Source: [Pseudopropionibacterium] massiliense
GTDB taxonomy: Bacteria; Actinomycetota; Actinomycetes; Propionibacteriales; Propionibacteriaceae
Assembly: GCF_900607225.1 (NCBI RefSeq)
Contig: NZ_LR027842.1
Span: 3,203,982-3,267,981 of the forward strand
DNA: 64,000 nucleotides
Direction of reading: 5' to 3'
Below, in pieces: positions 1 to 31,563 of the stretch; the first letter of the stretch is position 1; each line of letters starts with the position of its first letter. The position numbers and the translations under genes were made by a program. The notes under the pieces were generated by a model. It was not told the DNA's origin. It saw only the letters and a list, made by a program, of their open reading frames with translations, and ran no database searches.

Positions 1-387
1 CCGAATCAGGAACACTGCAATTGGAACATCAACATCTCCACCACTAATCCCACTGGAGAGATAGCCCTCTGGCTCACCCCAGCCGTTGCGGCGGGTTCCA
101 GAGTTCGACTATCCAACCGAGGCGAGGTAGAGACCGCCACCGTTGGTGCCATCTGGCAACGCTGGACGAGTCGGCTAGGGGTCGAACTCGCCAGCGGTGA
201 ATGGCTTTGCCTGGAACCAACACTGGGCCAGCAGGGCTTCCCTGAAATAATCGTTCGATCTACCGGGAACGATCTCTTGGTCGGGTGCGTGATCAGAGCA
301 TCCGCTCGAACGGCTCGGTGGCGTCTCGCTCTCCTGGAAAATACATCTGGACTGGTCGGTAGACATTCCTACTTGGCATCCTTCTAG
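1..387 (+). CDS. C-terminal end of an unidentified protein (partial, runs off left edge)
   Basis: Frame 1 is open from the first base to a TAG at 385-387, giving 128 residues with no start in view. The translation is Trp-rich (for example AIWQRWTSRLG, then ELASGEWLCLEP) and ends HSYLASF. I do not recognise the family. It lies upstream of and co-directional with the biosynthetic genes, about 118 bases before the next start, so it may be an earlier gene of the same cluster. No ORF on the other strand is convincing here. Most of the gene is outside the window, so a function cannot be assigned. Confidence 0.55.
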   Translation, partial: PNQEHCNWNINISTTNPTGEIALWLTPAVAAGSRVRLSNRGEVETATVGAIWQRWTSRLGVELASGEWLCLEPTLGQQGFPEIIVRSTGNDLLVGCVIRASARTARWRLALLENTSGLVGRHSYLASF

Positions 388-505
388 CCAAATCTCACAC
401 TTCCCAATCACCCGACAGACGCACCCCCTGCTGATCCACGGGTTAGCTGAGTGTGTCTACTTGACGACGCACGCTCGAACCAAAACACCACAGAAAGGAA
501 AAACC
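388..505 (+). promoter_or_regulatory. Leader region before the biosynthetic genes
   Basis: This is the only sizeable gap at the left end of the cluster. It contains the ribosome binding site AGAAAGGA (about 492-499) with 6 bases to the ATG at 506. A TTG at 461 is in frame but has no Shine-Dalgarno sequence, and the 15 residues it would add (Lys/Thr-rich) look untranslated. No clear -35/-10 pair is visible. Confidence 0.35.
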
Positions 506-1504
506 ATGAATACCATCGCTGATTACCGCACCCTCCGCGAGTCCGTAGGCGTCCACACTCCTACCGGCCCTCTCATCCGCATCACCGGCGAGGACCGCTT
601 CGATTTCCTCGACGCCTTCTTGTCGCGCAGCTCAGAATATGTCGACATCGAAACCACCCGGGAATGCCTGGCGCTGCGCAGGGACGGCATCCCATTCGCG
701 ATCTTCCTCCACATGGAGCGGGAGGATGAGACTTGGCTGCTGCCACGAACCGTCGCAACCTCGAAAGAGATGACGAGCTACCTGACTCCTTTCGTGACAG
801 GTGATGTGAAGGTCGAGGTTGCGCCCGATGGATGGACCGCTATCGCCTTCGAAGGGCCGGCTGCGTGGAAGGTCGCCGCCGAATTGGTGGACTTCGACAT
901 CGCCGGCTTGGTGCTCCATTCCATCACCGATATCGAGGTCCCGGGCCACACCGGGACAGGAACTCCCTTCCTGGCACGTGTCGGCACGACCGGCGAGTAC
1001 GGTTACCTCCTCGTCTCCGACGACGCTGCCTCAGCTCACGAGGTTGTATTCTCACATGCTGAGAGGTTGGGGGGCTCCAAGGTCTCCGAAGAAAGCTTGG
1101 CACGCGTCCAGGCGGAAGCAGGTATGCCCTACTACGCCATGGGCGTTCGCGATCTCGACGTCAACACTGCCGACCTGTCGTGGCTTTTGGACTGGAATCG
1201 CGTAGGTGAGTTTCACGGTTCAGACTCCCTCATCGCTCCTACTCGGGACCAACGTAAGCTGGCGCCGGTCGTGGCCTCAGCAGGTACCGTCTTCAAGAAC
1301 GGGGAAACCATCCGAGTAGGTCTCGAGGAGATCGGCACCATCTTCTACCGAGCTCCTTCGGTGAATCCCGAGGAAGAGCTGTACTTCGCAATCCTCGATG
1401 CGCCCTACGGGGTACCGACACTTGAATTGTCCGCCTCCGCTCCCGTGCGAACCGTCTCCTTGCCCCGCGTGCTCGCCCGCTCGGCTGTTGAGAAGATGGG
1501 CTGA
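506..1504 (+). CDS. GcvT/YgfZ-like folate-binding aminomethyltransferase family protein
   Basis: The product is 332 aa and resembles the glycine-cleavage T-protein fold: an N-terminal segment with ITGEDRFDFLDAFLS (the usual T-protein 'G.DA..FL' region), a middle block GTTGEYGYLLV, and VQAEAGMPYYAMGVRD followed by a C-terminal beta domain. T-protein relatives bind tetrahydrofolate and move one-carbon units; others, such as YgfZ, are not classical aminomethyltransferases. Start chosen at ATG 506 for its AGAAAGGA site. It sits 3 bases before the ketosynthase gene, so the two are probably co-transcribed. No genes for other glycine-cleavage subunits are nearby, which argues against a housekeeping role and for tailoring in the natural-product pathway. 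The substrate is unknown. Confidence 0.7.
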   Translation: MNTIADYRTLRESVGVHTPTGPLIRITGEDRFDFLDAFLSRSSEYVDIETTRECLALRRDGIPFAIFLHMEREDETWLLPRTVATSKEMTSYLTPFVTGDVKVEVAPDGWTAIAFEGPAAWKVAAELVDFDIAGLVLHSITDIEVPGHTGTGTPFLARVGTTGEYGYLLVSDDAASAHEVVFSHAERLGGSKVSEESLARVQAEAGMPYYAMGVRDLDVNTADLSWLLDWNRVGEFHGSDSLIAPTRDQRKLAPVVASAGTVFKNGETIRVGLEEIGTIFYRAPSVNPEEELYFAILDAPYGVPTLELSASAPVRTVSLPRVLARSAVEKMG

Positions 1505-1507
1505 GCG

Positions 1508-3814
1508 ATGAGAAGTCACGCAGTGGTTACTGGAGTCGGCCTGACCGCCGCCACCGGGAATGATGCCAAAGAGTGTTGGGAGGGGGTCTGTACCGGTCGC
1601 CGCGGCATCCGCAAAAACATCCTCTTCGACACTCAGGAACTTCTCAGTGACTGGGCTGGCTTGGCACCAGTTGAACAGGATTCGCGAGTAGATCGCTGCT
1701 ACGCCTTGGCGGACACGGCCATCTCTGAAGCGCTAGCAGATAGCAAGTTGATAATTGATCGAACCAATTCAGACCGCATAGGACTCGTGATCGGTTCCAG
1801 TCTTGGAGCGATGCCCTCGTTGGAACATGCTCATCGAAAGTTCCTCGAGAAGGGCATTTTGGATGCGAACATGATGGCTGAATCCCTGATTCACTGCGTT
1901 GCAGATCATTTGGCTGAAAAACTCGGACTTCGAGGCCCACGGGCCTTGATGTCCAATGCCTGCGCGGCCGGAGCGATAGCAGTGGGGTACGCCGTCGAAC
2001 AGCTTTGGTTCGGCGATGCGGATGTGGTGATCTGCGGCGGTGTCGATCCTCTGACAGAACTCTCTTCCTACGGATTCACCTGTCTCGGGGCGCTCGATAC
2101 CGAGCCTTGCAGCCCACTTTCCGCTTCCAACGGCCTGACCCTCGGGGAGGGAGCCGGCTTCCTGATTCTTGAGAAGGAAGAGCATGCGAAACGTCGTGGG
2201 GCCACCATACTCGCCGAGATTTCGGGATATGGGACGTCCTGCGACGGCCACCACCAAACTGCCCCTGATCCGGGAGGCGAGGGTGCCTGCCGCTCCATGG
2301 CATCTGCCTTGGAAGTCGCACGGTTCGCCCCCGGAGAGATCGACTACATCAACCTCCACGGGACTGGAACCCCCGCCAACGACTCGGTCGAGCCAAAGGC
2401 GATCCGGTTGCTCTTCAAGGATTCCCGCATCCCACCCGCAAGCTCCGTCAAGTCCGCCCTGGGCCACACGTTGGGGGCTGCCGGAGTGGTGGAGACCATC
2501 TGCTGTGTGCTCGCGATCGTCAATCAGGTCCTGCCACCGACTCTGGGCACTCGCGGTCTCGAGTCACGCTCGGGGTTGGACATCGTCCCTGAGAAAAGCC
2601 GTCCTGCTGAACTGAGCGTGGTGTTGTCGAACTCCTTCGCCTTCGGAGGAAACAACGCTTCCGTTGTAGTGAACAAGCCAGGGTATCGACCCGACAGGGA
2701 CCCCGTTGCTTATCATCGAGACGTGGCAATTACCGGCCTTTCCGGGACGGTGGGTAGGGCATCCTCGATTGAGGAGATACACCAGATGCTTGCCTCCGGG
2801 ACACAGTGCACTAGGATCGAAACGTTCGACGATGACATTCAGGTCCCCTTCGGCAAAGCCGATCTGAAGACCTTGTCACGACGACTCAACCCATCCAAGG
2901 TCCGGCGCATGGACCCCATGGGGATTCTTGCCGGAGCAGTGGTTGCTGACCTGATGAAAGGTCTGGGAAAACAGCCTCGGGCATTGGCGGAAGAAACCGG
3001 CATCATTTTCGCAACCGGCTACGGCCCGCTTTCCGCTGTCAGCTCCTTCAATGAAGGGATCGTCCGCCAAGGAATCACCGGCGGCAACGCCTTGGTATTC
3101 CCGAACACTGTGATAAATGCAGCCGCTGGCCACCTGGCTTTGCTGAACCGTTTCCGGGGATACACCGCAACGCTGGCCTGCGGCGGCACCAGTTCGGTGC
3201 TGGCCATTCAACTCGCTTCCCGGGTGATCTCACGCGGCGGGGCCGACCGAATCGTCGTCGTGATCGCCGACGAGCTGCCCAAGCTCGCCGTGCGGGTCAC
3301 CACTCGGCTGCCTGGATATCGCGGAGGACCCCCAGGGAAAATTTCGCGAGGAGCATTTCTCTCGGAGGGGGCCGTTGCCATCCTGCTTGAGGCCCGGAGC
3401 AGGGCTGAAAAACGAGGCGCCAAGATATTGGGAATTCCTCGAGGGTTCGGAGGAAGTGGTGAACCCGTCGGTGTGGCCAGGCTCAGCAGCGACGGAATCG
3501 CCTGGTCCCACAGCATGCTGACGGCCTTGGGCCAAGCCCAAGTAGATGCAGCAGACATCGCGCACGTAGTACGGGCCACCAGCGGCCATCCCGTCGTCGA
3601 TCTCGCTGAAAGCCGAGCCATCAAACGCTGCGGACTGGCTGGAGCAACTCAATTCAAACCGAAGTACACCGTCGGGGAAACCTGGGGTTGCGCCGCAGGT
3701 CTAGGGCTTGCCACCCTCCTCACCGATCCAATAACCAAACCAGGAGATCTCGTGTTGGTGAGTTCATTCGCACACGGCGGAAATTTCGCCTCGATGGTGG
3801 TGGAAGCAGCATGA
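1508..3814 (+). CDS. Fused two-domain beta-ketoacyl synthase (KS plus CLF-like domain)
   Basis: The product is 768 aa, about twice a FabF-type ketosynthase. Domain 1 (about 1-395) has a complete catalytic set: Cys152 in SNACAAG, His284 in HGTGTPAND and His320 in SALGHTLGAAG, with the C-terminal SNSFAFGGNNAS motif. Domain 2 (about 404-768) keeps a Cys (558, TLACGGTSS) but has no His in either matching position; the second is Glu724 in TVGETWG. It therefore resembles a chain-length-factor or accessory partner. Known KS/CLF pairs condense malonyl-ACP units; here both halves are in one chain. It overlaps the next gene by 4 bases (ATGA). No acyl carrier protein is encoded in the window. Confidence 0.88.
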   Translation: MRSHAVVTGVGLTAATGNDAKECWEGVCTGRRGIRKNILFDTQELLSDWAGLAPVEQDSRVDRCYALADTAISEALADSKLIIDRTNSDRIGLVIGSSLGAMPSLEHAHRKFLEKGILDANMMAESLIHCVADHLAEKLGLRGPRALMSNACAAGAIAVGYAVEQLWFGDADVVICGGVDPLTELSSYGFTCLGALDTEPCSPLSASNGLTLGEGAGFLILEKEEHAKRRGATILAEISGYGTSCDGHHQTAPDPGGEGACRSMASALEVARFAPGEIDYINLHGTGTPANDSVEPKAIRLLFKDSRIPPASSVKSALGHTLGAAGVVETICCVLAIVNQVLPPTLGTRGLESRSGLDIVPEKSRPAELSVVLSNSFAFGGNNASVVVNKPGYRPDRDPVAYHRDVAITGLSGTVGRASSIEEIHQMLASGTQCTRIETFDDDIQVPFGKADLKTLSRRLNPSKVRRMDPMGILAGAVVADLMKGLGKQPRALAEETGIIFATGYGPLSAVSSFNEGIVRQGITGGNALVFPNTVINAAAGHLALLNRFRGYTATLACGGTSSVLAIQLASRVISRGGADRIVVVIADELPKLAVRVTTRLPGYRGGPPGKISRGAFLSEGAVAILLEARSRAEKRGAKILGIPRGFGGSGEPVGVARLSSDGIAWSHSMLTALGQAQVDAADIAHVVRATSGHPVVDLAESRAIKRCGLAGATQFKPKYTVGETWGCAAGLGLATLLTDPITKPGDLVLVSSFAHGGNFASMVVEAA

Positions 3815-4473
3815 CCACAGTCATTCTCAGCCCTGAACCCAGTTTCCCATCGGCACACACCGACATCATCGACGTGATGGTGATACGCCACGCCAATCTG
3901 CCCCGAGGGCGGTTCGGTGAGGTCCATTCCCCAGCCGGGAGGCTACTTCTACGACAGGCTGCTGCTGCACTTCGATGCGTCGACGTCAGCAATCAGTTGG
4001 TCACTGATCACCACCATCGCTGGGAATGGCCTGCGCTGCGCCTGTTCGGCTCCGTCTCCCACATCGGGGCTTGGAGTGCGACAGCACTCACAAGCGGCAT
4101 CCATGTCGGGATCGACCTGCAGGATCCCCGCGATCGCCCCGGAGCGTTGTCCTTCCTGGCCAACTTGGTCGGACGCGAAAGCCCGCTGTCGATCCTTGAG
4201 TATGCAGAGTGTGAGTCTCTGGTCAAAGTTTCAGAACTGACCAAGGAAACCTTCGGGTCCGTGCGCCTGCCCGAGTGGAATCCAGGATGGCGTCCAGCAG
4301 CCGGTCACTGGATCCTGAGTCTGCTGGTTCCTGGGGCTGGTGCACTATGCATCGCATCTCCCGAACCCAGACCGATCCGCTGGTGGCAAGCCATCAGCAA
4401 GAAGATCGGGACGCTCGGGGAACCAGTCGAGGTGCCGTGGTTGGATGAGGAACGGTCATCATGTCCGCAGTGA
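3811..4473 (+). CDS. 4'-phosphopantetheinyl transferase-like protein
   Basis: The product is 220 aa. The family pattern is visible: SVSHIGAW at 81-88 (usual S.SH), VGIDLQDPRDR at 99-109 (usual GVD.E..R, Asp102 as the metal ligand), and a CESLVK segment at 134-139 in the place of the usual W..KEA..K block, with Glu135 and Lys139 as the likely conserved pair. Such enzymes attach phosphopantetheine to carrier proteins. The usual Trp is missing, so activity is not certain. Its start ATG overlaps the ketosynthase stop, and its 3' end overlaps the next gene by 13 bases, so translation is probably coupled. It would activate the carrier protein that the ketosynthase needs. Confidence 0.6.
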   Translation: MTTVILSPEPSFPSAHTDIIDVMVIRHANLPRGRFGEVHSPAGRLLLRQAAAALRCVDVSNQLVTDHHHRWEWPALRLFGSVSHIGAWSATALTSGIHVGIDLQDPRDRPGALSFLANLVGRESPLSILEYAECESLVKVSELTKETFGSVRLPEWNPGWRPAAGHWILSLLVPGAGALCIASPEPRPIRWWQAISKKIGTLGEPVEVPWLDEERSSCPQ

Positions 4474-5639
4474 CCTACAGCCGACCAATCTCAGGAATCG
4501 AACGCGGCTATCTCAACGTGGCCGCCCAACACGATCATCCGATGATCCACCTGGTTCTCGAAGGAAAAGGCTCGCTCGAACCGCGAGCGCTGGAAGCCGC
4601 CGTGGCCTCCGCCTGTGATGCGAATCCCGGAATCGCCGTGGTGCGACGAGGCACCCGTTGGGTCGGCGGGGGCCCTCTCCCGGCTGTAATTTCCCATGCG
4701 GCACCACTAACAAACGCGAATGACGTGGACCTGTTTCGACAGGGCCTTGATGTGGTTGGCGGCCCCGTCGCCGAAGTACATCTATTCGGTCACGAGAGCA
4801 CCACCTTGGTACTGCGGGCTACCCATGCAGTCTCCGATGGGCGTGGTCTGCAGCATTGGTTGCGCGACGTCTTCAGGGTGTTGCGAGGCGAAACACCGCT
4901 CGGAGCTCCTGACACAGCAACCGACCAGCATTTCGTTCGAACAGTCAAGGCCTGTCGAAAACCGAACACGGAATCGAGTTCTTCCGCACCGCACGCCCGG
5001 CTGTCCGCTCCCCTGTTCGGCGCCACCGAGGCTGGCGGGTGCATCCGATGGACCCGGCGTACCATCGCCACCAGCGCCTCAGCCATGAGCGCCAGGATCG
5101 CCGCAGCGGTCGCACGGTATGTCGGCGCGGCAGTAACCGTGATCATTCCCGTCGACCTTCGCCGGCACGACCCCACAGTGAATTCAACCGCCAACCTCAG
5201 CGCCCAACTCCCACTGCAAGTGAGTCCTGAAGAGTCTTGGCAACGAATCTATGGACGGCTCCTCAAGCTCCTGGCCCAAGGCCGCGAGACAGACACACTC
5301 CGTATGAGATTCCAGGATTCTAATCCCTACGCCAACACTTTGGAACAGGCGCAGGCCATAAAGAGCGATACATGTCCACCCTATGCCGCAATCATCTCCG
5401 ACCACGGGGTGATGGATCTGAAGCCCTTCGTCAGCCCTGGGTTCGCGCCGACAAGACTCAGCTCCTTTCCCCTATTGGTGCCATATGTAGGAACTTTTAT
5501 AAGTTCCTTCACCAACAATGGGATGACTCACCTCACCGTCGCCCATCGGGAAGGAGATGATCCGAATTCGATCGCCGGACTCCTCGACGATATAGAGAAG
5601 ATCACGGGAAAGAACTCGCCACATGAGAGAAAATCATGA
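4461..5639 (+). CDS. Condensation-domain / acyltransferase-like protein
   Basis: The product is 392 aa, with the chloramphenicol-acetyltransferase-like motif THAVSDGRG (His122, Asp126), the signature HxxxDG of NRPS condensation domains, PapA and wax-ester-synthase-type acyltransferases. C-terminal features such as IISDHGVMDL sit where these proteins carry a structural SN.G segment. These enzymes join an acyl donor, often carrier-bound, to an amine or alcohol. With the diaminopropionate genes downstream, the plausible job is amide formation between a ketide or acyl chain and diaminopropionate; that is inference. Start ATG 4461 has GAGGAA upstream. The 3' end overlaps the exporter by 4 bases. 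Confidence 0.65.
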   Translation: MSAVTYSRPISGIERGYLNVAAQHDHPMIHLVLEGKGSLEPRALEAAVASACDANPGIAVVRRGTRWVGGGPLPAVISHAAPLTNANDVDLFRQGLDVVGGPVAEVHLFGHESTTLVLRATHAVSDGRGLQHWLRDVFRVLRGETPLGAPDTATDQHFVRTVKACRKPNTESSSSAPHARLSAPLFGATEAGGCIRWTRRTIATSASAMSARIAAAVARYVGAAVTVIIPVDLRRHDPTVNSTANLSAQLPLQVSPEESWQRIYGRLLKLLAQGRETDTLRMRFQDSNPYANTLEQAQAIKSDTCPPYAAIISDHGVMDLKPFVSPGFAPTRLSSFPLLVPYVGTFISSFTNNGMTHLTVAHREGDDPNSIAGLLDDIEKITGKNSPHERKS

Positions 5640-7093
5640 CCACTGACCACATCGACGTTTTTACGCGACAGACATCCCCACCTATTCATCGTTCCACCTC
5701 ATCTGGGGCGGGGGGATATAGCAGCATGTTTGTGGCCGTGACGGGCTCTTTTCTCGCGATGCTCGACACGACCGTCGTCAATGTCTCTTTGCACGCCACA
5801 GCTCAGCAATTCGGAGATATTGCAGGTAGTCATTGGATCTTGACCGCCTACATGCTGGCTCTCTGCACCACCATGACTGGATGCGCCTGGCTCGTAGAGC
5901 GTTTCGGGTCGAAACGGGTCTTCGCTGCATCATTGGTCGGCTTCCTCGCTGGATCTCTCGCCTGCGCCCTGTCCCCCACTCTCTGGTTCTTGATCACAGC
6001 ACGGGCATTGACCGGAATGGCAGCAGGTGTACTCACCCCCGTCTCCACGGTGCTGCTGACCCGCGGCGTACCAAGAGAACGGATCGGTCATGTCCAGTCC
6101 CTCCAGGGTAGCGTGTCCATGATCGGCCCCCTGGTGGGCCCAACCATAGGTGGTCTGCTGGTTTCAGCAGCGGGTTGGCCCGCCGTCTACTGGATCAACG
6201 TTCCTGCATGCATCGTATTGTTGTTGGTGATGCGTTACGTGCCATCCGAAATACCTGAAGGTGGGGTACATCGCTTGGATCTGCCCGGGCTAGCGACCGG
6301 GGTCTTGGCAATCCTTTCCTGCATCGTCCTGTGCGGAATGCTGGGAACTCTACCCTTGCTTCATCCCTTGATGCTCGGAATCGGCCTAGCAGCAGTAACC
6401 ACCGGAGCACTATTCATTCTTCGAGAACTGAGAACCCAAAAACCATTACTGAATCTAAGGCTTTATTCGAACGCCATCTATGGTTGGTCGAGCATCAATA
6501 TCGCCCTGCTGGGGTTCCACCTCTACGCACCCATGGTGATTATTCCCCTATATCTCCAGGCCGCAAGGGGTAACGACCCGATAGAAACTGGGCTCATCTT
6601 GTCCGCGGGAGGAATCGGCGTGATGGCTGCGGGATTTACCTGCCCGTCCATACTTCGAAGATTCCACGGCGGCCACACGATGATCGCTGGGATCATGATC
6701 ACTCTCATCGGTTCAGTTCCACTCGTCCTGGTGGACAAATCCACCTCCTACGAGGTGCTGTGCGCGGCTCTTGTTCTCCGAGGGGTCGGCACCAGCCTGA
6801 CCGTCTTCGCCGCCATGACCCGGGCCTTCGAAGCCATCCCCGGAGGATCCATCGCTGATGCCTCATCACAGCTCAACCTGTTGCAACGGCTCGGGGGAAC
6901 TCTAGCTGCTGCCGTGACTCTCATGGCCATCCGGCAAGGGGCTGCGGAACATCACGGGCTCACAGCTCAAGTCTTCGGGACCGCAAGTCTGTGGATGCTC
7001 GTCGCCACAGTCATCACCCTCGCGCCCGCAGCATTTCTCCTGCGTGCGGAACGCCAGCAAGTCAGAAAAGAAGGAACCAATCGTGATCGCTGA
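5636..7093 (+). CDS. MFS exporter, DHA2 (14-TM) family
   Basis: The product is 485 aa with about 14 hydrophobic segments starting near residue 32. The first helix has FLAMLDTTVVNVSL, matching the motif D1 (LD.TIVNVALP) of the EmrB/QacA drug:proton antiporters. The loop ERFGSKRVF matches motif A (G.L.DR.GRR) and the GPLVGPTIGG stretch is motif C of antiporters. It probably exports the cluster product and gives self-resistance. The start overlaps the preceding stop (ATGA). The last 11 bases overlap the sbnA-like gene, so the biosynthetic operon continues unbroken. Confidence 0.88.
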   Translation: MTTDHIDVFTRQTSPPIHRSTSSGAGGYSSMFVAVTGSFLAMLDTTVVNVSLHATAQQFGDIAGSHWILTAYMLALCTTMTGCAWLVERFGSKRVFAASLVGFLAGSLACALSPTLWFLITARALTGMAAGVLTPVSTVLLTRGVPRERIGHVQSLQGSVSMIGPLVGPTIGGLLVSAAGWPAVYWINVPACIVLLLVMRYVPSEIPEGGVHRLDLPGLATGVLAILSCIVLCGMLGTLPLLHPLMLGIGLAAVTTGALFILRELRTQKPLLNLRLYSNAIYGWSSINIALLGFHLYAPMVIIPLYLQAARGNDPIETGLILSAGGIGVMAAGFTCPSILRRFHGGHTMIAGIMITLIGSVPLVLVDKSTSYEVLCAALVLRGVGTSLTVFAAMTRAFEAIPGGSIADASSQLNLLQRLGGTLAAAVTLMAIRQGAAEHHGLTAQVFGTASLWMLVATVITLAPAAFLLRAERQQVRKEGTNRDR

Positions 7094-8087
7094 ACAGCTG
7101 TGGGATCTGGCAGATTCGGATCGTCTCCTGGCCCTCCACGACTTTGTGCCCGGAGTCCGAACACTGTTGAAACTAGAAGGTCTCAACCCATCCGGATCCA
7201 TCAAACTCAAGACCGCTCGCCAGCTCATTCGAGCGGCCGAGGCTTCGGGCCGCATAGGCCCGGGATCCCACATAATCGAGTCCTCCTCCGGGAGCCTCGG
7301 CATCGCACTGGCATCGTTGGCAGCAGCTCGGGGATATCACATGATCGTTGTGACCGACCCGAATGCAAGTCCCCGCTCCATCTCGCACATGCGCGCCTTG
7401 GGGGCTGAAGTTCTGGTGGTATCGCAGCGGGACACCAATGGCGGTTTCCTTCAGACCCGCCTGAAGCTGCTTCGACGAATGCTCGATTCGGATCCCGGAA
7501 TCGTATGGCTCAACCAGTACGAAAACCCAGCCAATCCGGAGGCCCATCGCCTGTACACATACCAAGAAATTATCGACGCCTGCGGCGATCCTGATTGGTT
7601 GTTCGTCGGCGCCGGGACCACCGGCACGTTGATGGGCTGTATGCAAGGGCTGGTCGCGCGAGGCGCGAGCACAAGACTCGTGGCCGTGGACACCACGGGC
7701 TCAGTCACCTTCGGGATGCCTCCCGGGCCACGCCACATCCCCGGGCTCGGGACCAGCACACGCCCCCCAATATTCCAAGATTCCCCGGTGCTGGAGAAAG
7801 TTCACGTTGAGGAAATCCACGCGATCCACATGTGCCGTCGACTCGCGCGAGACAGTGGGATCCTAGTCGGCGGTTCGACGGGAACGGTGCTTGCAGCCGT
7901 AGCCGCGATGGCCCCGAAGTTCGCTCCACGAAGCACCGTGGTGGCCATCAGCCCGGACTTGGGAGAGCGTTACCTGGAGACCATCTACGACGATGGCTGG
8001 GTTGTCGAACGATTCGGCGTGAAAGCCCTGGACCTTGATACGCCGCCGAAAGCCTTCGTGGTCCCTGATGCACTTGTCGCCCACTGA
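7083..8087 (+). CDS. sbnA: SbnA-type synthase for diaminopropionate (PLP enzyme)
   Basis: The product is 334 aa and belongs to the cysteine-synthase (fold type II PLP) family. The pyridoxal-phosphate lysine is Lys41 in NPSGSIKLKTA; the substrate loop is SSSGSLG and the phosphate loop GAGTTGTLMG. Characterised SbnA joins O-phospho-L-serine and L-glutamate to give N-(1-amino-1-carboxy-2-ethyl)-glutamate. The call rests on the IKLK context and on pairing with an SbnB homologue directly downstream; an ordinary cysteine synthase would not have that partner. Start GTG 7083 has AAGGA upstream and lies inside the exporter 3' end. The gap to sbnB is 25 bases. Confidence 0.85.
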   Translation: MIAEQLWDLADSDRLLALHDFVPGVRTLLKLEGLNPSGSIKLKTARQLIRAAEASGRIGPGSHIIESSSGSLGIALASLAAARGYHMIVVTDPNASPRSISHMRALGAEVLVVSQRDTNGGFLQTRLKLLRRMLDSDPGIVWLNQYENPANPEAHRLYTYQEIIDACGDPDWLFVGAGTTGTLMGCMQGLVARGASTRLVAVDTTGSVTFGMPPGPRHIPGLGTSTRPPIFQDSPVLEKVHVEEIHAIHMCRRLARDSGILVGGSTGTVLAAVAAMAPKFAPRSTVVAISPDLGERYLETIYDDGWVVERFGVKALDLDTPPKAFVVPDALVAH

Positions 8088-8112
8088 GTCCGGTGAAATA
8101 GGAAAGGAAGAA

Positions 8113-9129
8113 ATGTCCATCGACCTGCACGAACATCCCGCCGATCTCCTGATCGTCAGTGCCGCCGAGGTGGAGCGAGAGCTGTCCGGCCGTATCAAGG
8201 ACGTGATAGATGTCGTCGCTGCTGCCTATGTCAACCATGACGCGGGACACAACGTCAACCCCAATAGCTGCTTCCTCCGATTCCCCGGTGAGTCAAGCGC
8301 CCGTATCATCGCCCTTCCCGCCTACTTGGGATCCGAGGCCCCAGAAGCTTCGGTGGCCGGCATCAAGTGGATCGCCAGTTTCCCTCAGAACATCGCCGGG
8401 AACCTGCAACGTGCTTCCGCAGTGCTGGTCCTCAATGACTGCAGCACAGGTTTCCCGTACGCAGTACTCGAATCGAGCAGGATCAGTGCCGCCAGAACCG
8501 CCGCCTCCGCCGCATTGGCAGCATCAGTTCTCAGGGAATCCCCAAGAACGGTCGGTGTCGTCGGCGGAGGCCTGATAGCCCGGGCCGTCTCTGAGCACCT
8601 CGCCGCCGTGGGCAGACTCGCACCGAGGATACGATGTTGCGACCTGGATCCGCAATCAGCAGCCAAATTGGCGCTCCACCTCGGCGATGGCGCCACGGTC
8701 TCCACTCTGGAGGAAGCGCTTGCCTGCGACCTCGTGGTGTTGGCCACCACCGCACCCACCCCGTACGTGCCAGAAGACTTCCGGCTGGAACCACGGCAGC
8801 TCGTCCTCAACATTTCCCTCAGAGATTTGGCGCCGCAGACGCTCATGGGCTGCAACAACGTGCTCGATGACGTCGAGCACTGCCTCAAGGCGGACACCAG
8901 CCCCCATCTGCTGGAACAGCTCGTGGGCAAACGTGATTTCGTGACCGGCACCTTAGGTGGGGTACTGCGAAACCGGGTAGCCCTGGACCCCGATCTGCCC
9001 ACTGTTTTCTCCCCCTTCGGGCTGGGAGTGCTTGACCTCGCTGTCGGTTCCCTGGTCCACCAAGGATGCCGCCGGTCTGGAAGCGGGACCCGTATACCCT
9101 CCTTCTTCGGCAACACTCGGCGATGGTGA
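8113..9129 (+). CDS. sbnB: SbnB-type dehydrogenase for diaminopropionate
   Basis: The product is 338 aa of the ornithine cyclodeaminase / mu-crystallin family. It has a Rossmann motif VGVVGGGLIARAV, the substrate-side GIKWIASFPQN, and the ending PTVFSPFGLGVLDLAVG, which matches the SbnB subfamily rather than true ornithine cyclodeaminases. Characterised SbnB oxidatively cleaves the SbnA product to L-2,3-diaminopropionate and 2-oxoglutarate with NAD. Start ATG 8113 follows GGAAAGGAAG; in-frame codons back to 8035 have no such site. With sbnA it makes the non-protein amino acid for the cluster. Confidence 0.85.
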   Translation: MSIDLHEHPADLLIVSAAEVERELSGRIKDVIDVVAAAYVNHDAGHNVNPNSCFLRFPGESSARIIALPAYLGSEAPEASVAGIKWIASFPQNIAGNLQRASAVLVLNDCSTGFPYAVLESSRISAARTAASAALAASVLRESPRTVGVVGGGLIARAVSEHLAAVGRLAPRIRCCDLDPQSAAKLALHLGDGATVSTLEEALACDLVVLATTAPTPYVPEDFRLEPRQLVLNISLRDLAPQTLMGCNNVLDDVEHCLKADTSPHLLEQLVGKRDFVTGTLGGVLRNRVALDPDLPTVFSPFGLGVLDLAVGSLVHQGCRRSGSGTRIPSFFGNTRRW

Positions 9130-9389
9130 GACACCTGGCTCTCTTCGTGGGATCACCGGCTCCACACTTGCCCCGCAGTGTCCACCACCAGCTATGCTCA
9201 CTTCTTGGACACGCAAACTTCCACACCATGGTCCAGATTCAGCACTCAGCCACAACCAAGCAAGGAGCAAAAGATGCCATGAATCTAGCCAATGGTGCAC
9301 TGTTCCCCGTCGAAAATCCTCCTATGATCGATATAACGCTCCAAGAGCAACGTCAAACCAAGCGAAACAAAATTTCAAAGGAGAATCGA
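9130..9389 (+). promoter_or_regulatory. Gap between sbnB and the small peptide gene
   Basis: This 260-base stretch is distinctly more A+T-rich than the genes before it. A TATGAT at 9323-9328 could be a -10 box for the peptide gene, but no good -35 matches it. An AAGGAG at 9262-9267 is followed by ATG CCA TGA at 9274 (a two-residue ORF) and by an ATG at 9279 in frame with the peptide. A longer, 90-residue product starting at 9279 is therefore possible, although the signal peptide argues for the start at 9390. Confidence 0.35.
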
Positions 9390-9551
9390 ATGTTCGCACG
9401 CAAATTTCTTGTCACTACCGCAACAATATTGGCTCTTCTGAGCCCATCAACAACCCCAGCCAACGCCTACACGCCCGACCATTCCAAAATCACCCAGGCC
9501 GCCACCCCCAGCGATTTGTGCGGATACTTCCTATATTTGTTCTGCCGGTGA
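9390..9551 (+). CDS. Small secreted two-cysteine peptide (candidate pheromone or bacteriocin precursor)
   Basis: The product is 53 aa. ATG 9390 is preceded by AAAGGAG with good spacing. Residues 1-26 form a signal peptide: MFARK, a hydrophobic core LVTTATILALL, then the cleavage-type end TTPANA. The predicted mature part is 27 aa starting YTPDHSK and ending LCGYFLYLFCR, with Cys44 and Cys52 bracketing seven mostly aromatic or aliphatic residues, so a disulfide loop is possible. It ends 46 bases before the sensor-kinase gene. I recognise no family. A signalling peptide sensed by that kinase is an attractive inference; a small antimicrobial or an envelope peptide are alternatives. Confidence 0.6.
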   Translation: MFARKFLVTTATILALLSPSTTPANAYTPDHSKITQAATPSDLCGYFLYLFCR

Positions 9552-9597
9552 AAGATATTACCGAAATCCGAACGAGTACTACCCGAGAGGAAACAAT

Positions 9598-10908
9598 ATG
9601 CTCAGACCAAATTGGAGTTCTTGGGGAAAAGCAGAGTATTCCACTCCCGCACCCCAATGGCTTCGACTTGGGGTGCCATGCGTGGTATTCATGTCCTTTC
9701 TGAGCGACCTCAACTACATACGACAAGGCCCGCTGGACTCAAGAGCGGCCTGGCTCCTGACCGAAATGATACTAGCCCATGCGGCAGTCGGGATCGCCCT
9801 TCTTTCAGCACGTCTTTCGGTTATCCTTTGCACTCTGGCCATGATTGCAACATTCATGACCCAGCTTCCCGGATTTCCTCTCGTAGCAGCATGCGTGATA
9901 ACCTTGATCACATCAGCTCTGTGCCGAATCCGCTTGGTCGTCATTCACTGCCTCGTAAGCATCACATGGGTGACCGTCGTGGCCTGGCACAGAGATATCT
10001 CATCAATATATGATCCCGAGAATTTTTGGTGGATCGCATTCTGGCTGATCCTGCTCCTCGCTCTCATAGGCCTAGTCCTCAGGCACCTTGTCATACGTAC
10101 CGCAAAGGCCCATGCACGAGTCAAAGAAGTCGAAGAGCGTCAAGAACAGATCCGCCAAGAAGAGCGTCAGAATCTCGCACGCGAGCTGCACGATGTAGTG
10201 GCCCACCATATCACGGTCATCACGATGCAGGTTATGGCCCAACGCCACTCACATGACTCGGATCAACTCCGCGAAACCTTGAGGGTCATCGATGATTCGG
10301 CACGCGAAGCGTTGATGGAACTTCGAGCCCTCCTCGAGGTCCTGCGCACGGGCGAGGATGGCAAGCCTCAGTTGCTTTCCAATCAAATCGTCACAAGTCA
10401 AAGCGTGAACAAACAGGTCGAACAAGAAACTAAATCGCTCGCCAGACTCGGGTTCAAAATGCACAAGATATCGGTGGACCCGCGCGTTGAATCGTTACCC
10501 TTTTCAGTCCAGATCACCTGCATTCGGGTCACCCAGGAATCGATAACCAACATAATCAAACACGCTCATCCCGGCGCAACATGCTCTTTGGAACTACTGG
10601 TCGGTCCAACCGAGGTGACCATCACGATAATCAACGACAGGGTCAAAGCTAAGACCAGAAAGCACGCGCCAGATCATGATCAAAACTTGTCAACCGGATA
10701 TGGCCTCACCAGTTTGAGGGAGAGAGTCTCCGCAGCGGGAGGCCGATACACCGCAGAATTGCACGGCGACAAGTGGACAGTGGAGGCGCACATTCCAGTG
10801 CCTGATCGCGGGCGCAACAGACCACTACCCCCAAGAAGACAACATAATACCCAATTTATTTCCTCCGATACTGAAAACCCCGGAGAAACAGAGGAAAAAG
10901 GAGAATAA
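9598..10908 (+). CDS. Sensor histidine kinase, HisKA_3 (NarL/DesK/ComP) class
   Basis: The product is 436 aa. About five or six hydrophobic segments (about 22-165) precede a charged coiled-coil linker (KEVEERQEQIRQEERQN). The dimerisation/phosphoacceptor motif is ELHDVVAHH with His198. The ATPase domain shows QESITNIIKHA (N box) and STGYGLTSLRERV (G box). HisKA_3 kinases pair with NarL/LuxR-type regulators. ATG 9598 is preceded by GAGAGGAAAC. It lies just downstream of the secreted peptide gene, and no regulator gene is adjacent; the only NarL-type regulator in the window is at 13791, beyond the IS element. The hydrophilic C-terminal tail after about residue 400 is unusual. Confidence 0.85.
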   Translation: MLRPNWSSWGKAEYSTPAPQWLRLGVPCVVFMSFLSDLNYIRQGPLDSRAAWLLTEMILAHAAVGIALLSARLSVILCTLAMIATFMTQLPGFPLVAACVITLITSALCRIRLVVIHCLVSITWVTVVAWHRDISSIYDPENFWWIAFWLILLLALIGLVLRHLVIRTAKAHARVKEVEERQEQIRQEERQNLARELHDVVAHHITVITMQVMAQRHSHDSDQLRETLRVIDDSAREALMELRALLEVLRTGEDGKPQLLSNQIVTSQSVNKQVEQETKSLARLGFKMHKISVDPRVESLPFSVQITCIRVTQESITNIIKHAHPGATCSLELLVGPTEVTITIINDRVKAKTRKHAPDHDQNLSTGYGLTSLRERVSAAGGRYTAELHGDKWTVEAHIPVPDRGRNRPLPPRRQHNTQFISSDTENPGETEEKGE

Positions 10909-11299
10909 CGAGAAACAGGAATCCGCCTACAGACCATCCTCCCTGAGGAGTTACTCACAGGCGACGCATTCGCCGGCAAAATCTGTGGCCAAGGCGTACT
11001 TGAGGACGCCCGTGAACAAGTCCTTGGCTAGCTAGGACAAGGGGAGAGAACCATGAACTGGCTCCCCTCCCTCACTATTCGTCACGCTGAGGCTTATTCA
11101 CAGTCTCCCCAAAGCTGGTTGAGCAGGACTGCGACGAAGAAGCAACTCGTGTCGAAACCACCCGACTTCCACCCCTCGAGACCCTGACCACGACCCCCTC
11201 ACCTGCACCCCTGACCAGAAGAGTACGCCGACGGGCGCCCACCTGCGAACAAGTCTCGCTACATAGATTTCAAGCATTATCGAAGGAGAAATCACTTTT
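10909..11299 (+). other. Intergenic region containing a dispersed-repeat copy
   Basis: This 391-base stretch has no convincing gene. The frame directly after the kinase stop codon stays open for about 40 codons (to about 11030) without a start codon and with no recognised similarity. A degenerate copy of the dispersed palindromic repeat lies at 11113-11162 (AGCTGGTTGAGC ... GTCGAAACCACC). A GAAGGAG about 11 bases before 11300 is the probable ribosome binding site of the next gene. Confidence 0.5.
11113..11162 (+). repeat. Dispersed GGTTGAGC...GTCGAAACC repeat, copy 1
   Basis: It begins AGCTGGTTGAGC and ends GTGTCGAAACCACC, the same ends as the copies near 22.1, 28.6, 44.0 and 50.4 kb. It is more divergent than those, in keeping with its position inside the acquired cluster. 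Confidence 0.6.
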
Positions 11300-12490
11300 A
11301 TGCACAGAACTTTAGGCCTCAGAAGCTCAACGGCTACGACCGTCCAACAATTCAAAAATCCACAGGAAGGCCTCGGACCATTGACACGAGGGTTTGCCGG
11401 TTATCGCTACATCAAGCCAAGCATAAGTCAAGTGCTCCTTGGAGTTTCGAATGGGCACACATCCTCCTCACAGAACCCGCTCTCCTTCTTCTGCTCCAAC
11501 GACAAGACAAATGTGCGGCTTCTGGGGTGGCCGGAAGATCCTACTGGTTCAGCAGCACGACTGTCCCAGTGGGAAACGGAGGGGGTGATGCACCGCGATC
11601 CAGAATCGATTTATGTCATGGAGTATTCCGTAAATGGCGTCACGGTGTGTGGAATTCTGGTTGAAGTCGATCTATCAAAGGGGGCAGGGTCAAGAATAGT
11701 ACCCCATGAGCATACCGATAGCACCAGAACCATGGGCATGAGAGAACACTTCAGCATGGCGCGCGTTGACATTGAACCAATTTTGCTCGTGCAACACATG
11801 ACGTCGATTGCACGCACCCTGATCGACACGATCAAGATGACAGCTGCGACGTCGATTGTCACACGCCCCCCCGACTTCATGTGCCGAATTTGGCGAGTTA
11901 CGGACCCCGACTTAGCCTCCAAGCTACACATCGAACTCGGGAAATGTCAAACTCTCGTTGCCGACGGGCATCACAGACTGGTATCGCATTCCTCAATCGG
12001 ACACGTGCTCGCCATGATTACAGATATCAACAGAAATTCACTTCGGCTCGGCGCCATTCACCGAATTATTCACAACACATCTCTACGGGAGGTGGAATCC
12101 AGGACGGCGGGCGTCACTTTCAGGGAAATAGATCCTCCATATGGTGATGCCGAAGGGGTGTTGGAAAACTGTAATCCCCATCAACTTCTGGTCACCGATG
12201 GAACCAGCTGGAGAATCGCTTCTCTCAACCGCGGATGCTCATTGGACATCTCCGCCCTTCATTTCGCCATTGCACCGATTTCCGAGGAAACATCTCGTCA
12301 ATGGTCGTATAGCCACGCGATACCGGAGGCAATATGCATCGCAAAAAGGAAACAAGGGGTGGCTTTCCTGCTTCACCCACCGTCTCTACCGCTGGTGTTG
12401 AAATATGCAGCGACCGGGCAGCTTCTTCCTGAAAAAGCCACCTCTTTCTGGCCCAAGCCTCTGGCTTCCATGGTCGTAAGAACCTTCTGA
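11300..12490 (+). CDS. DUF1015 family protein, candidate free-serine kinase
   Basis: The product is 396 aa with the layout of DUF1015 proteins: WETEGVMHRDPESIYVMEY (about 91-109), the PHEHT motif (135-139) and LVADGHHRLVSH with ADGHHR at 221-226. The ADGHHR segment resembles the ParB/sulfiredoxin-fold motif also seen in free serine kinases (SerK, SbnI). In staphyloferrin B clusters SbnI makes the O-phosphoserine used by SbnA, so here this protein may supply the same substrate; this is inference from context and motif. The start has GAAGGAG upstream at a long spacing of 11 bases. It is the last gene before the IS element. Codon use is A/T-richer than in the flanking housekeeping genes. Confidence 0.65.
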   Translation: MHRTLGLRSSTATTVQQFKNPQEGLGPLTRGFAGYRYIKPSISQVLLGVSNGHTSSSQNPLSFFCSNDKTNVRLLGWPEDPTGSAARLSQWETEGVMHRDPESIYVMEYSVNGVTVCGILVEVDLSKGAGSRIVPHEHTDSTRTMGMREHFSMARVDIEPILLVQHMTSIARTLIDTIKMTAATSIVTRPPDFMCRIWRVTDPDLASKLHIELGKCQTLVADGHHRLVSHSSIGHVLAMITDINRNSLRLGAIHRIIHNTSLREVESRTAGVTFREIDPPYGDAEGVLENCNPHQLLVTDGTSWRIASLNRGCSLDISALHFAIAPISEETSRQWSYSHAIPEAICIAKRKQGVAFLLHPPSLPLVLKYAATGQLLPEKATSFWPKPLASMVVRTF

Positions 12491-12612: not shown

Positions 12613-13713
12613 CTAGTGGTGTGTCCCTGATTTGGTTTCCCTGTTCAGGGTGACGCGTCCGCGGGCAACTTTGGTGAGGATGGATTCGGCGGTGGCGGTC
12701 CAGACGAGGGGACGGGGATTGTTGCTGTGGGCGGCGAGGTAGGACTCGATCGCGGTGATGAGGTCGGGTACCGAACCACACACGCCACGACGTAGGGCCT
12801 TGTCCGTGAGTTCCCGGAACCAGCGTTCGACCAGGTTCAACCATGACGAGCTGGTCGGGGTGAAGTGGAAGCAGACCCGCGGGTGACGCGCCAGCCAGCG
12901 GGTCACGGTGGCGTGTTTGTGGGTGGCGTAGTTATCCAGAATCACGTGCACTTCCAGACCGGTCGGCACCGCGGCATCAACAGTGTTGAGGAACTTCACG
13001 AACTCGCTGGCCCTGTGCCGGGGCAAACACTCACCGATGACACGACCGGTCACGACCTCCAGGGCCGCGAACAAGGTAGTGGTGCCGTTACGTTTGTAGT
13101 CGTGGGTCATCGTCGCTGCCCGCCCCTTCTTGATCGGTAACGAGGGTTGGGTACGGTCCAGGGCCTGGATCTGCGACTTCTCGTCCACACACAGCACGAT
13201 CGCCTGCTCCGGCGGGTTCAGATACAAACCCACCACATCGGTAAGTTTCGCCTCGAACTGGGGATCATTCGACAGCTTGAACGTGTCCACCATGTGCAGT
13301 TTCAGCCCACGCGCCGCCCAGATCCGCTGCACCTGCGACGACGAGATCCCCACCCGCTCGGCCATACTCCGACACGACCAATGCGTCTGGCCCGCAGGCT
13401 TGGTATGCAAGGTCAAGTCAACGACCTGCTCGATCGTGGCCTGCGGGATCGAGGGTTTATGGCCCCGCCCCACACGAACCTCACCCAACCGGGCCAACCC
13501 CTCTTCAGCGAACCGTTCCCGCCACGCCCGTACCGTCTTCGGAGTCACCCTCACCTCGACCGCGATCCTCGTGTTCGCCACCCCGTCCGCAGCCAACAAC
13601 AACGCACGAGCCCGTTGAACCTGCCGATACGCCGCCGACGTACTCCGGGCGATCACCTCCAATGACTCATGCTGACCAAGCAACAACTCCAAAGCAGGGG
13701 CAGCATCACGCAT
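12613..13713 (-). CDS. IS630-family transposase
   Basis: The product is about 366 aa from ATG 13713; an in-frame GTG at 13734 would add seven residues. The N-terminal part is a helix-turn-helix region (RIAVEVRVTPKTVRAWRER, then MAERVGISSSQVQRIWAA). The DDE catalytic core shows IVLCVDEKSQIQALDRTQP (first Asp), VHVILDNYATHKH (second Asp) and SSSWLNLVERWF (Glu), the standard IS630 triad. It cuts and pastes the element at TA sites. The stop codon TAG falls on the inverted-repeat end, so the gene uses the element boundary itself as its terminus. Confidence 0.93.
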   Translation of the reverse strand: MRDAAPALELLLGQHESLEVIARSTSAAYRQVQRARALLLAADGVANTRIAVEVRVTPKTVRAWRERFAEEGLARLGEVRVGRGHKPSIPQATIEQVVDLTLHTKPAGQTHWSCRSMAERVGISSSQVQRIWAARGLKLHMVDTFKLSNDPQFEAKLTDVVGLYLNPPEQAIVLCVDEKSQIQALDRTQPSLPIKKGRAATMTHDYKRNGTTTLFAALEVVTGRVIGECLPRHRASEFVKFLNTVDAAVPTGLEVHVILDNYATHKHATVTRWLARHPRVCFHFTPTSSSWLNLVERWFRELTDKALRRGVCGSVPDLITAIESYLAAHSNNPRPLVWTATAESILTKVARGRVTLNRETKSGTHH

Positions 13714-13764
13714 ACCCCCCAAACCACCCCACAACCAAACAACTATTTACGGGACACACCACTA
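12614..13764 (-). mobile_element. Complete IS630-family insertion sequence
   Basis: A single DDE transposase gene is bounded by perfect 14-base inverted repeats: TAGTGGTGTGTCCC at 12614-12627 and GGGACACACCACTA at 13751-13764. Each ends in the TA that IS630/Tc1-type elements duplicate at the target. The element is about 1.15 kb and looks intact and recent. It lies between the DUF1015 gene and the response regulator gene, ending only 26 bases before the regulator start, so it has replaced the native upstream sequence of that gene. Confidence 0.92.
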
Positions 13765-13790
13765 GCCCACAGAACCTCTAAGCTACTCAC

Positions 13791-14474
13791 ATGGAAGACA
13801 TCACGGTCCTTGCTGTCGACGACCAACCGTTGATGCTGCATGCCCTACGGACGTTCATCGAGAACGAGGACGGGGTGTCCGTCGCTGGAACTGCCGAGGA
13901 CGGAGAGGCCGCAGTCGAGGCGGCGAAAACCCTTTGCCCGGATCTCGTTCTCATGGACATCAAGATGCCTCGGCTCAACGGGATCGAGGCCACCCGGAGG
14001 ATCGTCTCGGAGGTGCCGGGAACCCGGGTTCTCGCGCTGACCACGTTCTCCACGCTGGATTATGTCGTTCCCGCCCTCCGGGCCGGAGCAGCCGGTTACC
14101 TGGTGAAGGACGCCCACCCCGACGAGATCCTCGCGGCCATCAGGAACGCGATGGACGACAACCTCCCCCTGTCCCCGTCCGTGGTGCGCCTCATGGCGCG
14201 GCAGGTGATCGGAGGAGCCCACGACACCCAGGCCGTCGCCGCGGCGACGGCGACGGAGGTGGGGCTCGCACCCCGCGAGATCTCGGTGCTCCAGTTCCTG
14301 GGAAACGGGCTGAGCAACCGCGAGATAGCCAAGAAGATGTACATCTCGGAAGGGTCGGTCAAGGCCTACCTGGCCAACGCCTGTACCAAGCTCGGGGTGC
14401 GGGACCGCCTCCAGGCGGTGATCCGGGGATTCGAGCTGGGCATCGTCAGCCCTCGCCTGTCGCTCGGTGAGTGA
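13791..14474 (+). CDS. NarL/LuxR-family response regulator
   Basis: The product is 227 aa. The receiver domain (about 4-120) has acidic pocket residues VDDQ, phospho-acceptor Asp56 in LVLMDIKMP, a Thr switch in ALTTFS and Lys in YLVKDAHPDE. The LuxR-type helix-turn-helix (about 160-220) has LAPREISVLQFLGNGLSNREIAKKM and SEGSVKAYLANACTKLGVRDR. These regulators pair with HisKA_3 kinases, so the kinase at 9598 is the obvious candidate partner. The IS630 element now separates them and sits directly upstream. No strong ribosome binding site is visible before the ATG. Confidence 0.88.
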   Translation: MEDITVLAVDDQPLMLHALRTFIENEDGVSVAGTAEDGEAAVEAAKTLCPDLVLMDIKMPRLNGIEATRRIVSEVPGTRVLALTTFSTLDYVVPALRAGAAGYLVKDAHPDEILAAIRNAMDDNLPLSPSVVRLMARQVIGGAHDTQAVAAATATEVGLAPREISVLQFLGNGLSNREIAKKMYISEGSVKAYLANACTKLGVRDRLQAVIRGFELGIVSPRLSLGE

Positions 14475-31260: not shown

Positions 31261-31364
31261 GAGATCCCCGCTCCCCATCACCCCGCGCCACCGGATTGAA
31301 CCGGTGGCGCGGGGTTTGTTCGGCGATGAGACAAATTTGTTCTTCAACTGCTAATCTCCGCCGT

Positions 31365-31512
31365 GAAGCTGGTCCGCCGAGGACATGGGAACCCGGTGAG
31401 AATCCGGGACTGACGCGCAGCGGTGACGGTGACAAACCTGCGATGCAGGCCACTGGGGAAACCCGGGAAGGCAGCAGGCGAGGAGGATCCGGAGTCCGAA
31501 GACCGCAGCTTC
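31365..31512 (+). ncRNA. Cobalamin (AdoCbl-type) riboswitch
   Basis: The closing helix pairs GAAGCT (31365-31370) with AGCTTC (31507-31512). Inside are the conserved blocks GGGAACCCGGTGAGAATCC, ACTGACGCGCAGCGGTGAC, CCACTGGGG, CGGGAAGGC and GAGTCCGAAGACC, in the order expected of the B12 element. It precedes btuCDF and should repress uptake when cobalamin is plentiful. A GAGCC/GGCTC hairpin just after it, near the start of btuC, may be the expression platform acting on translation. Confidence 0.92.
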
Positions 31513-31563
31513 GTTCTATCGGCTGAGAGCCTCGCGAACGGGCTCGTGGACACTGGAGCTTCG

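Follow-up and report, generated by a model that had tools for sequence, protein, structure and literature searches.

What does the biosynthetic gene cluster at the left edge of a 64,000-nucleotide stretch of the [Pseudopropionibacterium] massiliense chromosome produce? An earlier, sequence-only reading of this stretch (the window; C1:3203982-3267981 of a 3.48 Mb genome) placed an uncharacterised cluster at positions 1..12490 and proposed that its product is a ketide or acyl chain amidated to L-2,3-diaminopropionate (Dap). Of this cluster, which counts 18 genes and spans about 20 kb, the window holds the right half. Reading the DNA leftward places the cluster start about 11 kb outside the window (stretch L009, from about 6700), while positions 9598-12490, which hold a histidine kinase and a DUF1015-like gene, are not biosynthetic. 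About half of the cluster was thus visible to the earlier reading. The genes it named, encoding a GcvT-like protein, a fusion of a ketosynthase (KS) with a chain-length-factor-like half (CLF), a phosphopantetheinyl-transferase-like (PPTase-like) protein, an HxxxDG protein, an exporter and SbnA/SbnB, are all present where it put them, but a VinN-like loading set, a LanB-like protein, a ketoreductase (KR), a dehydratase (DH) and both acyl carrier proteins (ACP1 and ACP2) escaped it. Tentatively, at somewhat less than an even chance, the combined set is read here as a pathway of separate (type II) enzymes whose product is a pseudopeptide, assembled from Dap, malonate units and an aspartate-type starter. 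No product was found described for this type of cluster, and all readings come from computation alone.

The cluster is real and conserved. With the CLF half as query, 31 loci were recovered from genome_contigs, a collection of 84,980 species, and a weak archaeal one (L042) was dropped; the remaining 30 relatives are a lower bound, as two peptide patterns restricted the scan. They belong to distant actinobacteria and include species of Streptomyces, Kitasatospora, Rhodococcus and Flexivirga, as well as Cutibacterium porci and Propionibacterium acidifaciens. A block of 12 genes, LanB-SbnA-SbnB-KR-ACP2-DH-GNAT fusion-GcvT-like-KS-CLF-PPTase-condensation enzyme (COND)-major facilitator superfamily (MFS) exporter, keeps one order and strand, where its members are present, in 28 of the 30, an arrangement beyond chance. 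The two exceptions are Flexivirga, where SbnA and SbnB lie elsewhere, and a 7.3-kb contig (L037); one locus that stops within the KS (L039) was scored as in order. In the window's own cluster, SbnA and SbnB are located behind the MFS gene. KS-CLF and the GcvT-like protein occur in all 30 relatives, LanB, SbnA, KR, ACP2, DH, the GNAT fusion, PPTase and COND in 29, the MFS exporter in 28, and SbnB in 28, or 29 if an upstream Flexivirga stretch (L048) is included. The P. acidifaciens locus has a broken KS frame, and no MFS gene was found there. Stretches further upstream, covered for six of the 30 relatives, hold an acyltransferase (AT), an AMP ligase, ACP1 and an aminotransferase in 6/6 and an ATP-binding cassette (ABC) pair in 5/6. 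Within the window, where the cluster genes all lie on the + strand, four pairs of adjacent genes share 4 to 13 bases, and gaps of 3 and 25 bases separate GcvT-like from KS and SbnA from SbnB. As the sequence-only reading had supposed, a cluster of this composition did not turn up in the literature searched, as far as the accessible parts of those sources go, and to that extent the cluster is undescribed.

The case for an amino acid starter begins with the AMP ligase (L009 9390-10898), which stands directly before ACP1 (L009, ending 11121). Its best solved relative is VinN (3wvn, 357.8 bits), the next different protein scoring 216.9; the structures 3WV4, 3WV5 and 3WVN are all VinN (PMC11253843). 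In the VinN pocket, D230 contacts the beta-amino group of the substrate, a shortened loop carries K330 and R331, and on the opposite side are F231 and S299 (PMC11253843). The substrate is 3-methylaspartate for VinN and VtlN and aspartate for FlvN; each of the two is a beta-amino acid that bears a beta-carboxylate (PMC11284099). In the AMP ligase/VinN alignment, where the VinN numbering is shifted by a constant 16, D199, K298 and R299 of the ligase correspond to Asp230, Lys330 and Arg331 and are invariant in 7/7 rows. Phe231 and Ser299 are not matched, being replaced by Tyr200 and Thr267, both invariant as well, so the enzyme is filed as VinN-like with its exact substrate not fixed. Homology and pocket residues suggest that it loads an aspartate-type beta-amino acid onto ACP1 through the side-chain carboxylate, which would leave the alpha-carboxylate free. 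The ACP1 serine is kept in 8/8 rows, two of which represent the same Flexivirga gene.

These residues bear directly on a simpler scheme, in which KS-CLF makes a plain ketide for amidation to Dap. ACP1 would then receive Dap or a fatty acid from the AMP ligase, and the LanB-like protein would play an accessory part. SbnA and COND each accompany the KS in 29 of the 30 relatives, as that scheme expects, and Dap is itself a beta-amino acid. Yet the kept Arg331 equivalent sits in the loop that serves beta-carboxylate substrates (PMC11253843; PMC11284099), and Dap has no beta-carboxylate; a dedicated amino-acid loading set beside the AT also suggests an aminoacyl starter. A plain ketide is accordingly judged unlikely. 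Given that loading set together with the ACPs, KR, DH and the LanB-like protein, an aspartate-type starter is likelier than a plain acyl chain. The earlier proposal of an acyl chain amidated to Dap is supported in part, the Dap genes and a condensation-fold enzyme speaking for it. The arrangement resembles the loading systems of vicenistatin and fluvirucin (VinN, VinL; PMC11284099), where a free-standing VinN-type adenylation enzyme likewise accompanies a stand-alone ACP, but the set found here would feed a type II KS-CLF and not a type I polyketide synthase (PKS), and its AT is FabD-like. No VinO, VinM or VinJ was noticed in the window's cluster. The AT (L009 8474-9388) scores 255.1 bits to solved FabD as against 39.9 bits to 5czc, presumably VinK.

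Extension of this starter would fall to the KS-CLF fusion (1508..3814), a 768-aa protein with the KS at residues 1-390 and the CLF-like half at 391-768. The KS half is FabF-like (PRK07314, 416.8 bits against a cut-off of 387; TIGR03150, 419 bits, below its cut-off of 493.75). In an alignment of the window protein with 29 relatives, from which a length filter removed the broken P. acidifaciens frame, the catalytic triad Cys152, His284 and His320 is kept in 30/30 rows, while the CLF half has Gly560 at the Cys position in 30/30 and Glu724 at the second His position in all 29 rows with a residue there. ACP2 (L009 15501-15800) keeps its serine in 30/30 rows. The KR occupies a frame at L009 14518-15456, although its true start is probably later, and it is followed after ACP2 by a FabZ-like DH (L009 15797-16312) that exceeds the cut-off of one FabZ model (133.5 bits, cut-off 113) and falls short of another (129.3, cut-off 155.15). 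The PPTase-like protein (3811..4473) matches 4PPT_N weakly (E 0.0052, under the cut-off), but its GxDxQD and E-x3-K motifs are invariant in 30/30 aligned rows. With a Cys-His-His KS, a partner lacking the Cys, and KR, DH and ACP, the cluster has the makeup of a highly reducing type II PKS. Like the system of the solved KS-CLF 6kxd it combines KS-CLF, KR, DH and ACP, and it has no enoylreductase; it differs in its fused KS-CLF, single DH and amino-acid loading set, and its KS half is closer to solved FabF (258.3 bits) than to 6kxd (183 bits). In the proposed route, the FabD-like AT would place malonyl on ACP2, the fused KS-CLF would extend the starter, and KR and DH would convert the keto group to an alkene, so that the chain would be a short polyene or an unsaturated, vinylogous amino acid.

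The same enzymes invite comparison with cispentacin, whose type II PKS also pairs a KS with a partner lacking known motifs and has an ACP, an AMP ligase and an aminotransferase (PMC10698177). On a route of that kind, KS-CLF would extend a dicarboxylic starter once, the ring would close and the aminotransferase would aminate it. All four components are found in the window's cluster, as in that pathway (PMC10698177), and the KS half matches AmcF (268.3 bits), ACP2 matches AmcB (30.9) and the DH matches AmcE (56). Each of these scores is under its cut-off (325, 80 and 140, respectively), the FabF and FabZ models score higher, and membership in the Amc pathway was rejected on the three scores. The cluster's aminotransferase (L009 11118-12302) is moreover of class I/II (PF00155), as opposed to the class III transaminase AmcC, and a KR is present. 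Fusion of KS and partner, together with KR, the LanB-like protein, Dap genes and COND, further sets the window's cluster apart from the cispentacin system (PMC10698177), and a cispentacin-like route is considered very unlikely. A KS at C1:2758533-2760092 of the genome resembled a second copy but was set aside as part of a prodiginine-type cluster. That cluster, at C1 about 2755300-2775100 (from L010 10284 into L011), shows a RedH-like ligase (922 bits, cut-off 1350), a RedW-like dehydrogenase (354.8, cut-off 650) and a PigJ-like KS fusion (255.6, cut-off 900).

Dap would be supplied within the cluster. The SbnA-type synthase for the Dap precursor (7083..8087, GTG start) scores 381.7 bits to TIGR03945 (cut-off 349.95), and the SbnB-type dehydrogenase that releases L-Dap scores 363.1 bits to TIGR03944 (cut-off 326.9; frame searched from 8086). 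The latter likely spans 8113..9129, starting at the ATG at 8113, which is preceded by AGGAAAGGAAGAA. Both exceed curated NCBIfam cut-offs, which assigns them to the Dap pathway, as the earlier reading had stated, and on this family assignment SbnA and SbnB together would produce L-Dap as the first step of the route. Staphyloferrin B biosynthesis shares SbnA and SbnB, but there is no siderophore synthetase among the 18 genes of this cluster. The sequence-only reading would have been refuted by homologues in which the ketosynthase and the sbnA/sbnB genes are never found together; it withstands this check, as SbnA stands beside the fused KS in 29 of the 30 close relatives; SbnA and SbnB are lacking beside more distant fused KS genes in six stretches, discussed below.

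Joining the chain to an amine of Dap is predicted to be the task of the free-standing COND (4461..5639). No Pfam family matches it at 0.001. Its AlphaFold2 model (pLDDT 84.7), compared by Foldseek and VIA, leads to the nonribosomal peptide synthetase (NRPS) condensation-domain superfamily, to which it belongs by modelled fold and by an HxxxDG motif kept in 17/17 sequences, in agreement with its earlier description as condensation-like. A result on the other side is that VIA ranks AzeD first, an entry whose title calls it a dehydratase. COND might be an AzeD-like dehydratase that forms no amide, leaving amides solely to the LanB-like protein, a view held to be highly improbable. No paper title that the search brought up concerned AzeD, and passages of PMC10880069 mention azetidomonamide without naming that enzyme. 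Apart from the window's own genome and a close relative (45%), five of the 394 class genomes contain distant COND homologues (31-35%). HxxxDG is present in three of the four distant homologues checked, and in both fused homologues scanned (2/2) the COND part is followed by AMP-binding and carrier domains. In three stretches (L062, L064 and L065) the surroundings of a distant COND homologue include an AMP ligase and two KS III-like proteins, and in L062 and L064 a reductase-like gene as well; the gene kinds there were read from sequence, and the arrangement is reminiscent of Ole-type beta-lactone clusters.

A second amide may come from the LanB-like protein (777 aa; L009 12299-14632). It matches PF04738 only, the elimination domain PF14028 being listed for none of the 18 genes, and its family profile weakly matches a solved LanB-type protein (6ec7, 2.2e-12). 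Many of its homologues are fused to thioesterase domains. About two thousand NRPS/PKS clusters encode LanB-like proteins, some of them thioesterase-fused, and their function was unknown before SnaE, which adds Thr to an unactivated carboxylate, likely using Thr-tRNA (PMC11212132). By this description, and by having PF04738 but no PF14028, the protein resembles the PEARL or SnaE-like class of LanB homologues, for which SnaE is taken as the model. The window's cluster shares with that of threopeptin (sna) a LanB-like protein that lacks the elimination domain, again in a PKS/NRPS setting, whereas sna relies on a type I PKS module and an NRPS of two modules (PMC11212132); the text of the threopeptin paper contains neither 'diaminoprop' nor 'type II'. 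By analogy, the LanB-like protein would add one amino acid, derived from aminoacyl-tRNA, to a carboxylate out of reach of thioester chemistry. Possible sites would be the free alpha-carboxylate of the aspartate-type starter or the carboxylate of Dap. The product would leave the cell through the ABC pump (ATPase, L009, frame ending 7650; permease, L009 7647-8477) and the DHA2-type MFS exporter (5636..7093; PF07690, 1.2e-44; TIGR00711, 199.6 bits, below the cut-off of 230.2).

Whether a ribosomal peptide takes part is a question raised by the relatives. A LanKC-like class III lanthionine synthetase lies upstream of the kinase in six of the 30 loci, namely those of C. porci, P. acidifaciens and four Rhodococcus (L012 14439-16937; L030 13486-15921; L017 14405-16798; L018 14393-16786; L020 14393-16801; L023 14426-16819). 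The one of the six that was scanned reaches 469.8 bits to NF038151 (cut-off 575). Small open reading frames ending in SxxSxxxxC plus one residue follow the LanKC-like gene in five of these six loci, those of C. porci and the four Rhodococcus; the small frame in P. acidifaciens lacks that spacing. The motif is familiar from labionin-type lanthipeptides, and a polyketide-lanthipeptide hybrid branch among the relatives is possible. Lipolanthines and goadvionins are ribosomal peptides that bear such a chain on their N-terminus, and the window's cluster could in the same style provide an acyl cap for a class III lanthipeptide, attached by COND or by the GNAT fusion. This is quite unlikely, since neither a LanKC nor a precursor gene was found in the window's cluster, which leaves it outside the definition of class III lanthipeptide or lipolanthine clusters; the nearest LanKC-like gene is about 55 kb left of the first gene and 29% identical, and tblastn with the C. 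porci protein, across the 30 loci and six upstream stretches, matches only those six loci. Four LanKC-like genes occur elsewhere in the genome (C1 3136750, the nearest, 3117252, 756733 and 2680759), 26-29% identical to that of C. porci.

Returning to the pseudopeptide, a bolder form of the proposal has a single aspartate grown at both ends, by the fused type II KS from its side-chain carboxylate and by the LanB-like protein, as a tRNA-dependent ligase, at its backbone carboxylate, and then tied to Dap; the result would be an unsaturated peptide mimic and a new class of natural product, welded in the Rhodococcus/Cutibacterium branch to a class III lanthipeptide. This version is doubtful.

The GcvT-like protein (506..1504; PF01571, 2.9e-14, frame searched from 503) accompanies KS-CLF in all 30 relatives. 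In an alignment to 1woo, its Asp-Asp pair is replaced by Phe-Ala or Leu-Thr in 30/30 rows. Asp96 (T. maritima numbering) is presumably essential in GcvT, and a working aminomethyltransferase, ruled out as a candidate by the absent pair, is an unlikely function judging from these alignments. The CLF profile has matches at 1e-40 in 11 of 394 class genomes. Besides the window's own, these are a close relative (585.6 bits) and nine genomes that score 145-185 bits. In the six of these nine distant fused-KS-CLF stretches that were opened, no SbnA, SbnB, LanB or COND was found within 19.9 kb at 1e-5. One of the distant stretches (L073, 5727-10647, reversed) holds KR, ACP, DH, the GcvT-like gene and fused KS-CLF together, the AT just before them, and no Dap or LanB genes. 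The GcvT-like protein thus travels with the PKS cassette, and it looks as though GcvT-like and fused KS-CLF form an older cassette, the Dap and LanB genes being specific to the close family. The remaining protein of the block, the GNAT fusion (682 aa; L009 16321-18369, start C1:3202320), reaches into the window with its last 128 aa (1..387); its C-terminal part gives weak beta-sandwich fold matches, the VIA list being dominated by the GNAT domain.

Transfer of the cluster had also been suggested. Its GC content is low (0.588-0.600, against 0.666-0.673 in the flanks), an insertion sequence lies beside it, and the COND gene occurs in three of 198 genomes of the family, one being the window's own and none of the others from its genus. 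In a KS tree of 46 rows, however, the window falls in an 11-row group that includes C. porci (support 97/94), so recent import from outside the family is not demonstrated; by this tree, old presence with loss, or transfer within the family, fits as well.

Downstream of SbnB lies a candidate gene for a 53-aa peptide (9390..9551, +) with AAGGAG before its ATG, a signal-peptide-like start and a two-Cys end, CGYFLYLFCR. It matched a single database cluster, of the window's own kind, and is a weak candidate for a signal to the adjoining histidine kinase (9598..10908, +; PF07730, 1e-14), a candidate regulator of the cluster. The candidate partner of the kinase is a LuxR-type response regulator (13791..14474, +; PF00072, 4e-29; PF00196, 1.1e-15), and the loci of C. 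porci, P. acidifaciens and Rhodococcus have kinase and regulator next to each other on the downstream side. In the window they are separated by an insertion sequence outside the pathway (12613..13765, - strand), with a DDE_3 transposase (12613-13734, 1.2e-21) and 15-base perfect inverted repeats at its ends (12613-12627 and 13751-13765). Between kinase and insertion sequence stands the DUF1015-like gene (11300-12490, 84.7 bits), found in none of 36 related loci. That it might act as a serine kinase and supply O-phosphoserine to SbnA was considered and rejected: a single solved chain matched at E 0.63, the gene is missing from those 36 loci, and no paper combining the two terms turned up. Farther along the window, a cobalamin riboswitch (31353-31523, 79.6 bits) lies beside what is presumably a FecCD-like permease gene, named from its sequence.

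A small bioactive molecule of a new type may come from the cluster. If the proposed pathway is true, beta-amino-acid loading as in type I macrolactam pathways, a type II KS pair and tRNA-dependent amide formation would be united in one small cluster. The GcvT-like protein without the Asp pair enters as part of a type II PKS cassette, with a role not assigned. The function of LanB-like proteins in polyketide clusters could also be tested on this system, and 30 loci are now available in which to search for the product.

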